Below are positions 5,689 through 57,527 of a stretch of DNA of 64,000 nucleotides, one piece after another. The stretch comes from Geothrix terrae (lineage in GTDB: Bacteria > Acidobacteriota > Holophagae > Holophagales > Holophagaceae). The stretch lies in contig NZ_JAKZLA010000005.1 of the NCBI RefSeq assembly GCF_022808775.1, forward strand, positions 186,001 through 250,000, written 5' to 3'. The translations under genes were made by a program, and so were the position numbers. The number at the start of each line of letters is the position of its first letter. Within the stretch, counting starts at the first letter, position 1. The notes under the pieces are model-generated. The model saw only the letters and a program-made list of their open reading frames with translations, did not search any database and was not told where the DNA came from.

Positions 5689-7137
5689 GTGGACGCGTTG
5701 CTCGAATCCCTCGAACCGAAAACGATCTGGTCCTACTTCCTGGGGCTGTCGAAGATCCCCCGCGGGTCCAAGAACGAAGCCGCGGCCGCCGCCTGGGTGG
5801 CGGACCAGGCGAAGGCCCTGGGCTGCGAGGTGGAGCGCGACGAGGTCGGCAACGTCATCATCCGCAAGAAGGCCACCCCCGGGAAGGAGGGCCGCCCCAC
5901 CACCTGCCTGCAGGCTCACGTGGACATGGTGTGCGAGCAGAACGAAGGCACGGGCCATGACTTCCTCAAGGATCCCATCAAGGTCCGTCTTGACGGCGAC
6001 CTCCTCCGCGCCACGGGCACCACCCTCGGCGCCGACAATGGCATCGGCGTGAGCGCCGCCCTGGCGGTCCTCGCCAGCAAGGACATCGCCCACGGCCCCC
6101 TGGAGGTCCTCATCACCATCGACGAGGAGACGGGCCTGACCGGTGCCAACGGCCTCCAGCCCGGCCGCCTCAAGGCCAAGTACCTCCTCAACCTCGACAG
6201 CGAGGAGGAGGGCTACCTCACCATCGGCTGCGCCGGCGGCGAGGACACCATCGCCACCCGCAAGCTCACCCGCACGGCCCCGCCTGCCGGCGCCCGCGCG
6301 TTCCGCCTGAAGGTCTTCGGCCTCAAGGGCGGCCACTCCGGCATCGACATCCACGCCGGGCGCGGCAATGCCATCCGCATCCTCGCCCAGGTCCTGGGCG
6401 CCCTGAGGGCGGACTTCAGCTTCGCCCTGGCCGGCATCAAGGGCGGCAACAAGCGCAACGCCATTCCCCGCGAGGCCTCGGCGCAGATCTTCCTGGACCC
6501 CGCCCAGGAGCAGGCCTTCAAGAAGGCCCTGGCGGCCCACGAGGCCCACTGGCAGGCCGCCCTGGGCGCCTTCGATCCGGGCCTGCACCTGGCCCTGGAG
6601 GCCGGCGAAGGCACCCAGGTCATGTCCGGCGCCGACACCGAGGCCCTGATCCGCCTGCTACTGGCCCTGCCCCACGGCGTCGAGGCCATGAGCCCCGACA
6701 TCCCCGGGCTGGTGCAGACCTCCACCAACATGGGCGTGATCGAGACGCGCGAGAACGAGGTGGAAGTGAACCTCCTCACCCGCAGTTCCATCAACGCCTC
6801 CAAGACCGCGCTCTCCGAGCGCATCGCGGCCACCTGCGCCCTGGGCGGGTTCGAGTCCCACGTCACCGGCGGCTACCCCGGCTGGAAGCCCGAACCCAAG
6901 GCCTCGCTGGTGAGGATCGTCAACGAGACCAACCAGAAGGTCTTCGGCAAGACCCTGGAGATCATGGCCATCCACGCCGGCCTGGAGTGCGGCCTCATCG
7001 GCGAGAAGTACACCGAGATGGAGATGGTGTCCTTCGGCCCCAGCATGTGGGACGTCCACACCCCCGACGAGCATGTGAGCGTGCCCTCCGTGGGCAACTT
7101 CTGGAAGCTGCTCATCGCCGTCCTCGAGACCGTGTAG
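5689..7137 (+). CDS. pepD: Aminoacyl-histidine dipeptidase (M20 family, PepD)
   Basis: 482 residues with a GTG start preceded by GGAGG at 5680. The M20 zinc ligands are visible: H77 and D79 in AHVDMV, D116 in GADNGIG, the catalytic/ligand acidic pair in TIDEETG (about 146-147), D170 in LNLDSEEEG, and the C-terminal His in IHAGLECGL. The lid-domain motif KGGHSGIDIHAGRGNA is typical of PepD. The length is that of cytosolic PepD, which hydrolyses Xaa-His and other dipeptides. There is no signal peptide. It stands alone, divergent from the RDD operon and upstream of tRNA-Ser. Confidence 0.95.
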   Translation: MDALLESLEPKTIWSYFLGLSKIPRGSKNEAAAAAWVADQAKALGCEVERDEVGNVIIRKKATPGKEGRPTTCLQAHVDMVCEQNEGTGHDFLKDPIKVRLDGDLLRATGTTLGADNGIGVSAALAVLASKDIAHGPLEVLITIDEETGLTGANGLQPGRLKAKYLLNLDSEEEGYLTIGCAGGEDTIATRKLTRTAPPAGARAFRLKVFGLKGGHSGIDIHAGRGNAIRILAQVLGALRADFSFALAGIKGGNKRNAIPREASAQIFLDPAQEQAFKKALAAHEAHWQAALGAFDPGLHLALEAGEGTQVMSGADTEALIRLLLALPHGVEAMSPDIPGLVQTSTNMGVIETRENEVEVNLLTRSSINASKTALSERIAATCALGGFESHVTGGYPGWKPEPKASLVRIVNETNQKVFGKTLEIMAIHAGLECGLIGEKYTEMEMVSFGPSMWDVHTPDEHVSVPSVGNFWKLLIAVLETV

Positions 7138-7213: not shown

Positions 7214-7304
7214 GGAGAGTTGTCCGAGTGGCTGAAGGAGCACGATTGGAAATCGTGTAACGGTCAAAAGCCGTTCGGGGGTTCGAATCCCCCACTCTCC
7301 GCCA
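7214..7304 (+). tRNA. tRNA-Ser (GGA anticodon)
   Basis: Cloverleaf of 91 nt with encoded CCA. The acceptor stem GGAGAGT pairs with ACTCTCC, the discriminator is G, the T-arm is GGGGG-TTCGAAT-CCCCC, and the anticodon loop is TTGGAAA with anticodon GGA. A long variable arm typical of serine tRNAs lies at about 7256-7276. The last 23 nt (7282-7304) recur in inverted form three times downstream. Confidence 0.97.
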
Positions 7305-7305
7305 A

Positions 7306-7338
7306 AAGCGCCCCGCAAAGCGGGGCGCACCTTTTTTT
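7306..7338 (+). terminator. Intrinsic terminator of tRNA-Ser
   Basis: Perfect 9-bp stem GCGCCCCGC/GCGGGGCGC with an AAA loop, followed after ACC by a run of seven T. The A-run before and the T-run after can also pair, extending the stem into the flanking tRNA tail and its inverted copy. Confidence 0.9.
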
Positions 7339-7535
7339 GGCGGAGAGTGGGGGATTCGAAGTCACAGAAATGCTGGCAGGTAGCGGCCCCTGGAGACAGC
7401 CCGGGGGGCTGTCGGAAGGGATCAGCCGCGTGCCAGCATTTCGTGCGGCCGGAGGGGACGCCGCGCAGCGGTGGCCCCGAAGGGAATCCCCCCAGGATCA
7501 TCCTGCCTCGACGCTCGGCGGGGCGCACCTTTTTT
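7338..7535 (+). repeat. tRNA-tail tandem repeat, unit 1 (198 bp)
   Basis: Begins with a perfect 23-nt reverse complement of the tRNA-Ser 3' end (7338-7360). It contains a 12-bp inverted repeat (GAAATGCTGGCA / TGCCAGCATTTC) enclosing a hairpin GACAGCCC/GGGCTGTC, then further GC hairpins, and ends with a second copy of the GGCGGGGCGCACC-T-run that follows the tRNA. No protein is called here; frames are open mainly because 198 is a multiple of three. Confidence 0.93.
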
Positions 7536-7731
7536 TGGCGGAGAGTGGGGGATTCGAAGTCACAGAAATGCTGGCAGGTAGCGGCCCCTGGAGACAGCCC
7601 GGGGGCTGTCGGAAGGGATCAGCCGCGTGCCAGCATTTCGTGCGGCCGGAGGGGACGCCGCACAGCGGTGGCCCCGAAGGGAATCCCCCCAGGATCATCC
7701 TGCCTCGACGCTCGGCGGGGCGCACGTTTTT
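7536..7731 (+). repeat. tRNA-tail tandem repeat, unit 2 (196 bp)
   Basis: Nearly identical to unit 1, differing by one G missing in the central hairpin, a G-to-A change, and a shorter T-run after CGCACG. It begins with the same perfect 23-nt inverted tRNA tail (7536-7558). Confidence 0.93.
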
Positions 7732-7925
7732 TGGCGGAGAGTGGGGGATTCGAAGTCACAGAAATGCTGGCAGGTAGCGGCCCCTGGAGACAGCCCGGGG
7801 GGCTGTCGAAAGGGATCAGCCGCGTGCCAGCATTTCGTGCGGCCGGAGGGGACGCCGCGCAGCGGTGGCCCCGGAGGGAATCCCCCAGGATCATCCCGCC
7901 CCGACGCTCGGCGGACGCGCTTGAT
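7732..7925 (+). repeat. tRNA-tail tandem repeat, unit 3 (194 bp)
   Basis: Third copy, starting with the inverted tRNA tail at 7732-7754. A few substitutions cluster toward its right end, where the terminator-like GGCGGGGCGCACC-T motif has decayed to GGCGGACGCGCTTGAT. Confidence 0.92.
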
Positions 7926-7964
7926 TGGCGGGGTGTGGGATTCGAACTCGCAAAATCCCCGCCA
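7926..7964 (+). repeat. Degenerate fourth inverted tRNA-tail copy
   Basis: Starts TGGCGGGGTGTGGGATTCGAA, a diverged version of the 23-nt inverted tail, exactly one period after unit 3. It ends with CCCCGCCA, which pairs with its own first eight bases. The array stops here, 34 nt before mobB. Confidence 0.7.
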
Positions 7965-7998
7965 CGAACGCGCCATCATGGAGGCGGAGGGCTTCGCC

Positions 7999-8514
7999 AT
8001 GAAGGTCATGGGCATCGTCGGCTGGAGCGGCAGCGGGAAGACCAGCCTGGTGGTCGAGGTGCTGCCGCTCCTCAGGAAGGCGGGGTTGAAGGTCTCGACC
8101 ATGAAGCATGCGCACCACCGCTTCGACGTGGACAAGCCCGGGAAGGATTCCTTCCGGCACCGGGAGGCCGGCGCCTCAGAGGTCCTGGTGGTGACCTCCT
8201 CACGCTGGGTGCTGATGCATGAATCCAGGGAGGAGCCCGAGCCCAGCATCGAGTCCCTGATCGAGCGCATGACGCCCGTGGACCTGCTTCTCATCGAGGG
8301 CTTCAAGACCCACCCGCACCCCAAGCTGGAGATCCACCGGGAATCCGAAGGCAAGCCCCTGCTCTGCCCCGAGGACCCGGGGATCGTGGCCGTGGCCAGC
8401 GATCGCCCCCTACCCGGGCTGAAGATTCCAGTGCTGGACCTGAACGATCCCGGTGCCGTCGCCGAGTTCATCCTCGCCCACACGGGCCTGCGGACGCCTC
8501 GTCAGGCCATGTAG
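7999..8514 (+). CDS. mobB: Molybdopterin-guanine dinucleotide biosynthesis protein B
   Basis: 171 residues. ATG 7999 is chosen for its upstream GGAGG; an in-frame ATG at 7978 lies against the repeat. Walker A GWSGSGKTS spans residues 8-16. KHAHHRFDVDKPGKDSFRHREAGA and LLLIEGFK are the typical MobB blocks. MobB is a GTP-binding accessory factor that helps MobA attach GMP to molybdopterin. No mobA or other molybdenum cofactor gene is nearby. The 3' end overlaps the convergent TSUP gene by 13 nt. Confidence 0.92.
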   Translation: MKVMGIVGWSGSGKTSLVVEVLPLLRKAGLKVSTMKHAHHRFDVDKPGKDSFRHREAGASEVLVVTSSRWVLMHESREEPEPSIESLIERMTPVDLLLIEGFKTHPHPKLEIHRESEGKPLLCPEDPGIVAVASDRPLPGLKIPVLDLNDPGAVAEFILAHTGLRTPRQAM

Positions 8515-23452: not shown

Positions 23453-23475
23453 GGGTGGTACCGGTGGTCGGACTC
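23453..23475 (-). repeat. Direct copy of the tRNA-Leu(CAA) 3' end
   Basis: These 23 nt are identical to 23580-23602, which hold CCA, the 3' acceptor strand and part of the T-arm of tRNA-Leu. An adjacent hairpin, GGCCCC-ACT-GGGGCC (about 23436-23450), mirrors the tRNA terminator, so tail plus terminator have both been copied. Confidence 0.85.
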
Positions 23476-23533
23476 CGGTTCCCGCCGCGCCTGAGGCGTT
23501 CCCGGCGGCGCCTACCTGGCCGCCATCCGCGAC

Positions 23534-23551
23534 TTCGAGCCCGACCACCGG
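23534..23551 (+). repeat. Inverted copy of the tRNA-Leu(CAA) 3' end
   Basis: TTCGAGCCCGACCACCGG matches the tRNA tail with one mismatch in 18, but on the opposite strand to the tRNA. The terminator hairpin 23561-23577 sits between it and the real tRNA, giving a tail-terminator-inverted tail arrangement. The remainder of 23260-23582 shows only GC-rich hairpins and no gene. Confidence 0.8.
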
Positions 23552-23560
23552 ATACGAGAA

Positions 23561-23582: not shown

Positions 23583-23669
<87 letters not shown>

Positions 23670-56078: not shown

Positions 56079-57527
56079 TCATCCGCGCGCGGATGCCAGC
56101 TGTTCCCTGGCCAATCGACCCAGAGTCGAGAGCGCCCGCGTGAATGGACCTTCCAGCGAGTAGCAGGCGGAAAGGCGGAGGTAGCGGTCGTAGCGTCCGG
56201 ACGGGGAAAAGAGGTTGCCGGGGGTCACGGTGATCATCTCAGCCAGGGCTTTCTGGAAAAGGCCCTGGGCTGAGCAGCCTTCCGGCAATTCGACCCAAAG
56301 GAGGTACCCGCCCGCGGGCGAGGTGGCCCGGGTGCCCGCGGGGAGGTGATCGGCGACCAGCCCGCGCAGCCGGTCCATCTGGATCGCATAGGCGCGGCGC
56401 AAATGCCGCAGGTGCGCTTCGTAACCGCCTGATTCCAGGAACACGCCAACGGCCTCGGCCAGGAGGGCCGGCTGCGCCACCGACGATGCGAACTTGATCT
56501 GGGCCAGCTCCCGGTGGAAGCGGCCTCCCTCCAGCCACCCCAGGCGGAATCCCGGCGCCAGCGTCTTGCTGAAGGAGGAGCAGACGATCACCCAGCCATC
56601 CGCATCGAAGGCCCTTACCGCGGGTTCCAGCGGGGCGCGGAACTGCAGCTCTGCGTAGATCGCATCCTCGATGAGCGGCACCTTGTGGAGGTTCACCAGC
56701 GCCGCGAGCCGTTTCTTCGCGGCCAGGGGCATGATGCTGCCCATGGGGTTGTGGATGTTCGGCATGGCTATGACAGCGGCGAGACGCTTCTCGCAGAGGA
56801 GCGCCTCAAGCGTGCCCAGGACGAGGCCGGTCTCGGGGTGGGTGGGGAGTTCCCGGGCCTTGAGTCCCAGTTCCGCAAGGAGCGGGAGAAGGCTGAAGTA
56901 GGTGGGCGACTCGATGCCGACGGTGTCGCCCGGCCGGGTGACCCCGCGGAGGGCGATCTGGAGGGCCTCCAGGCAGCCGTTGGTGAGCACGACACGATCC
57001 GGGTCCAGCTTCATCCCGAGGGTTTGCGCGTGCCGCGCGATCTGATCCCGCACGAGCGGAGGCCCCGGCGGCAGCGAATAGGTGGTGATCAGCTCGGGAC
57101 GCTGCTGGAGGAGCCTGCTGGTGATCCTCCCGAGCTTCTCGCCGGGGTACCAGGGACCCAGCCGGGGGCACGCCAAGGAAAGATCCACAGTGCCGGGAAG
57201 GGCCTGGGCCGTGATGACGGCGGTGATCTGATCCAAGACGGCCAGTTCGGTTTCCCGGGCACGTCCCGCCTGCCGCAGCGGCCTCCCTTCCGTGATGGGG
57301 AGTTGTGCCTTCACGAAGTACCCGGAGTGGGGCTTGGCCTCGACCAGTCCCCGGGTTTCCAGGAGGCGGTAGGCCGCGAGCACGGTGTTCATGCTGAGCC
57401 GGCGCATGGTCGCGGTCTCCCGGATGGACGGCAGGCGGGCGCCGGGTGCGAGCCGCCCCTCCTCCATGGCAGACCGCAATTCCGACGCCAGGGCGAGATA
57501 GAGGGGATCGCCGGTGTGAAGCGCCAT
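56079..57527 (-). CDS. MocR/GntR family regulator with PLP aminotransferase domain
   Basis: 482 residues. Winged helix of GntR type at about 8-72 (LRSAMEEGRLAPGARLPSIR, then LSMNTVLAAYRLLETRGLV). The aminotransferase fold occupies 110-480, with D288 in LIEDAIYAEL and the PLP lysine K321 in SSFSKTLAPGFRLGW. MocR proteins are transcription regulators that sense PLP or amino acids. It is divergent from the M20 gene, with an inverted repeat in the shared 159-nt region, so regulation of that gene and itself is likely. Confidence 0.93.
   Translation of the reverse strand: MALHTGDPLYLALASELRSAMEEGRLAPGARLPSIRETATMRRLSMNTVLAAYRLLETRGLVEAKPHSGYFVKAQLPITEGRPLRQAGRARETELAVLDQITAVITAQALPGTVDLSLACPRLGPWYPGEKLGRITSRLLQQRPELITTYSLPPGPPLVRDQIARHAQTLGMKLDPDRVVLTNGCLEALQIALRGVTRPGDTVGIESPTYFSLLPLLAELGLKARELPTHPETGLVLGTLEALLCEKRLAAVIAMPNIHNPMGSIMPLAAKKRLAALVNLHKVPLIEDAIYAELQFRAPLEPAVRAFDADGWVIVCSSFSKTLAPGFRLGWLEGGRFHRELAQIKFASSVAQPALLAEAVGVFLESGGYEAHLRHLRRAYAIQMDRLRGLVADHLPAGTRATSPAGGYLLWVELPEGCSAQGLFQKALAEMITVTPGNLFSPSGRYDRYLRLSACYSLEGPFTRALSTLGRLAREQLASARG

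Follow-up and report, generated by a model that had tools for sequence, protein, structure and literature searches.

A putatively mobile family of non-coding palindromic repeats at tRNA and tmRNA 3′ ends in Geothrix and related Holophagaceae

INTRODUCTION

The gene for tRNA-Ser(GGA) in Geothrix terrae is followed by three tandem repeats, each of which opens with a reverse-complementary copy of the 3′ end of that tRNA. How does the tail of a tRNA gene come to be copied, inverted, into the DNA behind it, and what is the repeat that carries the copy? The original prediction offered two answers: a regulatory RNA locus resembling rtT, its RNA antisense to the tRNA tail, or a fast-evolving repeat generator. 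The rtT repeats behind E. coli tyrT occupy one locus and carry direct copies of the tRNA 3′ end. Bacterial mobile DNA also integrates preferentially at the 3′ ends of tRNA genes, and the elements that do so generally bring a fixed attachment sequence of their own.

We analysed a stretch of 64,000 nucleotides containing the array (called the window here), together with related genomes. The reading that we favour, with a probability of roughly 0.6 and on the basis of sequence comparison, is that the array represents one locus of a non-coding, non-autonomous family of mobile palindromic repeats, which Geothrix and related Holophagaceae carry where tRNA and tmRNA genes end. A search of the open-access literature found no paper describing this tRNA-tail repeat family.

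RESULTS

The array behind tRNA-Ser(GGA)

The tRNA-Ser(GGA) gene lies at 7214–7304 on the forward strand (identified by ARAGORN and as Rfam tRNA), with a peptidase M20 gene (5689–7137) before it and a MobB gene (7999–8514) after the array, both assigned by Pfam. The part of the gene that is copied is the 3′ tail, from the T-loop to CCA (7282–7304, forward strand), and the tRNA terminator, a hairpin followed by a T-run (7308–7338, forward strand), stands between this tail and the first inverted copy. Unit starts (GGCGGAGAG..) are found at 7339, 7537 and 7733, with a degenerate start at 7927, giving periods of 198, 196 and 194 bp; both the three tandem units and the fourth start one period on are as originally predicted. 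Identity to unit 1 is 99% for unit 2 and 97% for unit 3.

The order within a unit is inverted tail, core of about 120 bp, direct tail remnant GAATCCCCC, and finally the 3′ arm of the terminator with its T-run. The inverted copies (7335–7360, 7533–7558, and 7729–7754, all on the reverse strand) span the T-loop sequence TTCGAA to CCA plus the first trailer bases. Copy 1 is complementary to 7282–7307 at 26 of 26 positions, and the perfect 23-nt reverse complement that had been described for each unit is therefore present and is part of a longer exact match of 26 nt. The cores (7361–7481, 7559–7678, and 7755–7875, forward strand) are matched by a covariance model, R1, at 7336–7499 (E 7.1e-39, this unit being itself in the R1 alignment), 7534–7696 (E 1.1e-37), and 7730–7893 (E 1.3e-39). 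Core 1 opens with GTCAC.. and contains the stem GAAATGCTGGCA/TGCCAGCATTTC (7367–7378/7431–7442), which is the 12-bp inverted repeat noted previously and is present in every unit; the motif GGTAG (7379–7383); an inner hairpin (7395–7413); the motifs GATCAG (7420–7425) and GTGCGGCC (7443–7450); and a third hairpin.

The direct tail remnant had been overlooked. It is 9 nt long in each unit of the window (7484–7492, 7681–7689, and 7878–7886, forward strand) and pairs with the inverted copy in the predicted fold. The units had also been said to carry a copy of the terminator, which holds for the 3′ arm and T-run, both exact, and not for the 5′ arm, which is altered; a weaker terminator-like hairpin (7 pairs vs. 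9) is still detected ahead of units 2 and 3. The array is closed by a degenerate terminal inverted tail (7927–7946, reverse strand; 83%). Misassembly does not explain such repeats in general, since genomes assembled as one contig also contain tandem units of this family (two in G032 and three in G019), the window's own assembly being in 14 contigs.

A second, shorter unit of the same plan is found at 23460–23558 on the reverse strand, behind tRNA-Leu(CAA) (23583–23669, reverse strand). It is matched weakly by R1 (E 0.0027), and has its own inverted tail together with a complete direct tail (tail scores of 15.5 inverted and 20 direct). Further weak R1 matches in the window (at 56891, 49901, 40225 and others; E 0.038–0.6) were treated as chance.

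Related units at other tRNA genes of the genome

With one unit as query, the window's own genome (3.43 Mb in 14 contigs) gave 12 matches. Three are the units of the window and one is the tail of the tRNA; the remaining eight lie behind tmRNA and the tRNAs Ser(GCT), Ser(TGA), Gly(CCC), Glu(CTC), and Gln(TTG). All 12 are at the 3′ ends of tRNA or tmRNA genes.

A survey that makes no use of the core recorded whether the final 26 nt of a tRNA reappear within 600 nt of it, downstream or upstream. Tail copies, inverted, direct or both, were found downstream of 21/47 host genes and upstream of 3/47; the former count was corrected to 20/46 host tRNA and tmRNA genes, “Ser(ACT)” in L138 being an antisense false call at a Met gene. 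The corresponding downstream and upstream counts were 2/32 and 2/32 for a tRNA cluster on contig 14 of the same genome, 3/32 and 0/32 for another genus of the same family (G152), and 1/33 and 0/33 for a genome of another family (G053); for each of the last two, 30 loci were fetched from 45 tRNA matches, giving the 32 and 33 genes counted. The region G000:C14:157281–163603 (L144; G000 is the window's genome) is a dense cluster of about 30 tRNA genes, many of them low-scoring, which double host isoacceptors and have no inverted tails. It looks phage-like.

Reading of individual loci showed additional kinds of core downstream of Cys, Arg, Phe, Asp, Asn, His, Pro, Val, Met, Ala, and Leu tRNAs. Two types of junction are seen: the inverted copy either stops in the T-loop (TTCGAA|GTCRC) or covers the whole T-arm (..CCGA|GTGG). 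Direct tail copies that are complete to CCA bound the core in several units, at Ser(GCT), Cys, Glu, Leu, Asn, and Val(GAC).

Several variants were met with. The first unit typically starts 31–48 nt past the gene, and behind tmRNA a second, shorter unit type can precede it; examples are L013 1938–2060 and L066 1176–1300, which follow a GGCAGGTAG..hairpin..GGATCAG plan with a different sequence. Units behind tRNA-Met and tRNA-Arg(CCG) (L091, L097) share little with the window units except the inner hairpin GACAGCC..GGCTGTC, and inner hairpins may be exchanged between units as modules. Two genomes encode tRNA-Gln(TTG) without CCA (..CCCAACG; L017 1713–1796 and L102). The inverted copy next to it in L017 follows this CCA-less form, and the right-hand direct copy there reads CCA. 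Behind the tmRNA of G009 (L066 1800–3580), three open reading frames lie between two partial units; the first is a PemK/MazF-type toxin (Pfam, E 5.8e-19) and the other two have no Pfam match. Arrays can thus carry cargo.

Flanks follow the host tRNA while cores are shared between tRNAs

A folded core of about 90–120 bp recurs behind different tRNAs and in different species. To its left is an inverted copy, and to its right a complete or incomplete direct copy, of the tail of the local tRNA. Among 152 core matches in the fetched loci, 107 are downstream of a tRNA or tmRNA in the orientation of the gene (67 starting within 120 nt of it and 40 further downstream), two are on the opposite strand and overlap a forward match, as a palindrome may, and 43 have no gene in reach. 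Fourteen stretches from this last group were read, together with two variant units: L044, L054, L056, and L088 hold a displaced tRNA or tmRNA tail, L078 a partial tRNA, and L086 and L092 no tRNA tail. The arrangement in L054, L056, L078, and L088, where displaced or partial tails accompany units and no complete tRNA adjoins, is that seen at the far end of tRNA-integrated islands.

The correspondence between flank and host was measured in first units (E below 1e-6) whose start is no more than 60 nt from a tRNA. In 58/59 cases no tRNA for another amino acid fits the inverted copy as well as its own tRNA does, the exception being a Gly unit, with mean match scores of 16.5 for the own tRNA and 7.5 for the others. 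The match resolves Ser isoacceptors, and several units (Gly and some Ser) match in the T-arm part only.

The cores, by contrast, cross from one tRNA to another. Identity is 97.8% between the window core behind Ser(GGA) and a core behind Ser(TGA) in G012, 91.1% for a Ser/Gln pair, 90.0% for Gln/Gly, and 88.9% for tmRNA/Ser. Of 1085 cross-tRNA pairs, restricted to those differing in length by at most 6, 20 reach 90% and four reach 95%.

Copy number at the pepD–tRNA–mobB locus

All 47 genomes of the genus that were searched matched a query combining pepD with tRNA-Ser(GGA), some by the tRNA or part of the gene only. In the four genomes where mobB directly follows, the number of units is 0 (G007), 1 (G025), 2 (G006), and 3 (the window). 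The phrase “fast-evolving repeat generator” comes near to this result. The zero-unit site (L152) retains tail, terminator, inverted tail and GTCACTGA, comparable to the terminal half that closes the window array. This is the state expected after recombination between flanking blocks, and the site may be a deletion product. Several more distant genomes have no unit or trace of an inverted tail behind tRNA-Ser(GGA). No near-identical pair of genomes with a truly empty and a filled site was present among those compared, L152 already having the terminal half.

Core identity does not follow that of pepD (45 pairs of 10 genomes; Spearman rho 0.06, p 0.68). For example, G000 and G024 have cores 97.9% identical and pepD 90.8% identical, while for G025 and G028 the figures are 59.2% and 86.9%. 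This comparison used 15 of 30 loci, of which 10 gave a core; G007 has no core, G008 and G036 are cut by contig ends, and G009 and G021 were missed by the search expression.

Distribution

A first search of 60 genomes, including the window's own, matched 31, which is 31/37 from the same genus and 0/23 from outside it; both unit homologs and variable copy number in relatives, which the original prediction had proposed looking for, are therefore found. Many of the relatives are draft MAGs, whose contigs are broken at arrays. Scanning named genomes for the pattern gave 112 stretches, of which 80 were examined. The matches listed include Geothrix fermentans, campi, rubra, limicola, paludis, fuzhouensis, and sp. 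SG200, as well as Holophagaceae MAGs and three contigs of two Acidobacteria MAGs; rows with neither an upstream tRNA nor a core-profile match (Methylobacterium, Prevotella, and others) were treated as chance.

R1 was run against 297 Acidobacteriota genomes, with E up to 1e-5 and stricter filters. It matched 23, all of the same family, and the 274 genomes without a match comprise four of the family and all 270 outside it. In a family-wide draw, 43/61 genomes were positive (31/31 Geothrix and 12/30 others), covering 9/11 genera. R1 understates the spread, given that G152 is R1-negative and nevertheless carries similarly organized units behind Pro(CGG) and Asn. The presence of units in all 31 Geothrix genomes of the draw could also be read as old inheritance with gene conversion.

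The unit had no match in 50,697 phage records or 72,556 plasmid records, and carriage by phage or plasmid was rejected on this ground; four pattern matches in viral contigs were not matched by the core profile at E 0.01 and are probably chance.

Predicted fold and covariation

Folded as a single strand, the unit is predicted to form a three-way junction closed by the inverted tail against the direct tail. The folding z-score is −5.55 as DNA and −5.15 as RNA, with none of 200 shuffles as stable. Covariation was assessed in an alignment (A2) of 53 of the 67 non-redundant units; the other 14, which were at contig ends, had deletions or insertions, or were in some cases second units, were left out by judgement and not by a fixed rule. 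Over the 53 units a structure of 33 pairs is paired in 94.5% of cells, compared with 34.5–49.3% when the partner is slid by 1–3 columns. Two-sided changes occur in 22/33 pairs, and none of 500 shuffles reaches the observed values, a significance that is overstated because structure and counts come from the same related sequences, the slid control being less affected.

Such covariation need not mean RNA. The stem mismatches in the units are 43 G·T, 37 A·C, and 58 others (24, 17, and 32 in the core helices only), compared with 13, 0, and 1 in the acceptor stems of the host tRNAs (Fisher p 0.0013, on 80 G·T and A·C cells from related sequences). An RNA formed from one strand would tolerate G·U but not A·C, and the near-equal counts therefore imply that pairing is kept about equally on both strands, pointing to a fold that is maintained at the level of DNA rather than RNA. 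Strand-symmetric pairing of this kind is expected of DNA palindromes whose arms are matched by template switching or which are read as folded DNA, and it would follow that copying at the DNA level can resemble a conserved RNA fold. The unpaired motifs GTCAC–TGA, GGTAG, GATCAG, and GTGCGGCC are conserved, the last three in most units, suggesting that a protein reads the folded structure.

The terminator hairpin precedes the first unit, and an Rfam scan of 7306–7975 found no family at threshold; in the Rfam search that identified the tRNA, sub-threshold matches such as sX4 (35.6 bits vs. 70) overlap the tRNA. A promoter scan found nothing at the array, which carries little weight given that it also missed the promoter of the tRNA itself. 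An additional transcript from the array region may exist, and would be compatible with our data.

DISCUSSION

A possible route to the observed arrays

Mobility of the family could be achieved as follows. The core would reach a new tRNA by recombination with junctions at or beside the T-loop (GTGAC|TTCGAATCC), using an enzyme presumably supplied in trans, and would leave the target's block of tail, terminator and inverted tail on both sides of the core, that is, a long copy of the target. Template switching between the arms of the palindrome during DNA replication would then keep the copies matched to the local tRNA, which would explain why they follow it. Recombination between the identical flanking blocks would finally expand the array or delete a core, leaving a terminal half. 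One locus (L255) has about 80 bp of tail–terminator–inverted tail–GTCACTGGATCGC on both sides of a single core, and with flanking blocks of this kind tandem growth and loss can be explained by ordinary recombination. Template switching has been reported to create, maintain, and repair hairpin arms (PMC8794818).

No mobilizing gene was identified among the families searched (Y1, RT, Phage_integrase, and IntI). The Y1 transposase PF01797 and the reverse transcriptase PF00078 each have 0 matches in the window's genome; as controls they were positive in 5/14 and 3/14 genomes, respectively. Tyrosine recombinase (integrase) domains occur at seven places in the window's genome, none of them within 90 kb, by coordinates, of the units that the one-unit query found there. 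A retro-mechanism with the inverted tail as primer-binding site was attractive in that the inverted tail copy starts with TGG, as do retroviral primer-binding sites; it was rejected, there being no reverse transcriptase in this genome.

The stronger proposal that this is a new class of bacterial mobile DNA is tentative, and we would put its chances somewhat below even. The element would be a folded palindrome without genes, directed to the conserved T-loop of tRNAs, and would make direct and inverted copies of the tail on insertion, such that one core fits any tRNA without damage. If so, an undescribed mechanism of recombination or fold-back replication would be supplied in trans. One small core is shared by Ser, Gly, Gln, Glu, and tmRNA genes, and units of related architecture follow Cys, Leu, Pro, Asn, Asp, Val, Met, and other tRNAs. 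The flanks of this core match whichever gene hosts it, unlike those of the usual elements with a fixed attachment sequence. Confirmation would provide a natural system for studying the way in which palindromes copy their surroundings, possibly a recombinase of a new kind that acts in trans, and a cause of variability where islands and phages integrate.

Alternative explanations

The units might instead be scars, or minimal satellites, of elements that integrate into tRNA genes. A tyrosine recombinase would then have inserted a short circle at the T-loop or 3′ end, with the direct tails as attL and attR and the core as an arm-binding region. Direct tail copies are the usual signature of integration in tRNA genes (PMC9897764), and the CCA-complete direct tails bounding cores at Ser(GCT), Cys, Glu, Leu, Asn, and Val(GAC), the seven integrase-domain places, and the displaced tails with units at L054, L056, and L088 would all fit. 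This leaves unexplained, however, both the inverted tail and the presence of one core with the right tail at many tRNAs, and the distance of all seven integrase places from the units in the window's genome and the absence of matches in phage and plasmid records also count against it; we consider it unlikely. Less probable still is a regulatory RNA with a defined structure, whether of the rtT kind or antisense to the tail of the tRNA. It would account for the strong fold with covariation, the fixed orientation behind the tRNA, and the conserved unpaired GGTAG, GATCAG, and GTGCGGCC, but one unit family stands behind many different tRNAs, and it is further weakened by 0–3 units at one orthologous locus among species, the terminator ahead of the first unit, the lack of an Rfam match at threshold, and mismatches that are nearly symmetric between strands, in contrast to those of the tRNA stems. 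This part of the original prediction is unsupported.

Local tandem duplication with template switching, the core being immobile, is very improbable. The near-identity of units 2 and 3 to unit 1, the perfect arms running from the terminator into the tRNA end at L013, L015, and L017, and the reported capacity of template switching to create and maintain hairpins (PMC8794818) would be natural consequences of it, but the same core occurs behind many unrelated tRNAs and in many species. The cross-tRNA identity of up to 97.8% requires movement of the core or long-range conversion. The units could, lastly, be atypical attC sites moved by a resident integron integrase, with the GTT of the tRNA T-loop as a secondary site. 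IntI cuts G|TT, and the junction falls between G53 and T54 of GTTCGAA; an integrase (TIGR02249 over cut-off) is present in 40/61 genomes of the family, including the window's, and outside Geothrix in 9/12 unit-positive and 8/18 unit-negative genomes, a weak trend. Against this, the genuine attC found in these genomes (GCCTAAC..GTTAGGC) is unrelated to the units, the best core-profile match in seven integron stretches has E 1.6, and 11/43 unit-positive genomes have no integrase over cut-off, so that we give this explanation hardly any credence.

Comparison with known systems

The Geothrix family resembles rtT in that a tRNA gene is followed by tandem units of 150–200 bp, each of which includes a portion of the gene's 3′ end. 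It differs in being dispersed rather than at one locus, in having inverted as well as direct copies, and in its covarying stems. Assignment to the rtT type was rejected as the main reading; the principal copy is inverted and the direct remnant is 9 nt per window unit. Among small dispersed repeats, MITEs are likewise short, gene-free, bounded by inverted repeats, and spread through the genome, but the “ends” of a Geothrix unit are copies of the target tRNA that differ at each site, and no parent was found among the Y1, RT, Phage_integrase, and IntI families. As for a target-site duplication, the duplicated block in L255 is long and tRNA-specific.

REP and REPIN sequences with RAYT transposase (PMC3116915) are also short, non-coding, palindromic, dispersed, non-autonomous, and partly clustered. 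The Geothrix units differ in lying at tRNA 3′ ends with target-matched flanks, in a genome with no Y1 transposase. REPs carry GTAG beside the hairpin, and there is a likeness here to the GTAG next to the Geothrix hairpin. REPIN was rejected as a classification, given the missing Y1 transposase and that 12/12 matches in the window's genome are at tRNA or tmRNA ends and not in scattered extragenic pairs.

Islands and phages integrated at tRNA genes have direct tail copies on both sides (PMC9897764). Such tails at both ends are present at the six tRNAs where they are complete to CCA, and the window has only its 9-nt remnant. The units differ from islands and phages in being 150–200 bp long and without genes (an integrase gene of their own would find no room in this length), in the extra inverted tail, and in the use of one core at many tRNAs.

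Integron attC sites are, like the units, folded structures in arrays. The ends of the units, however, have no GTTRRRY-type boxes, the RYYYAAC..GTTRRRY pair characteristic of attC was not found, and the core profile has no significant match in the seven integron stretches, the units being unrelated to the attC of the genus itself. Geothrix genomes do carry genuine chromosomal integrons with an integron integrase (L300, at G032:C1:566000–585500; L301, L302, and L304; and G000:C9:374660–375604, reverse strand), and L300 contains about 20 attC sites of about 124 bp (GCCTAAC..GTTAGGC).
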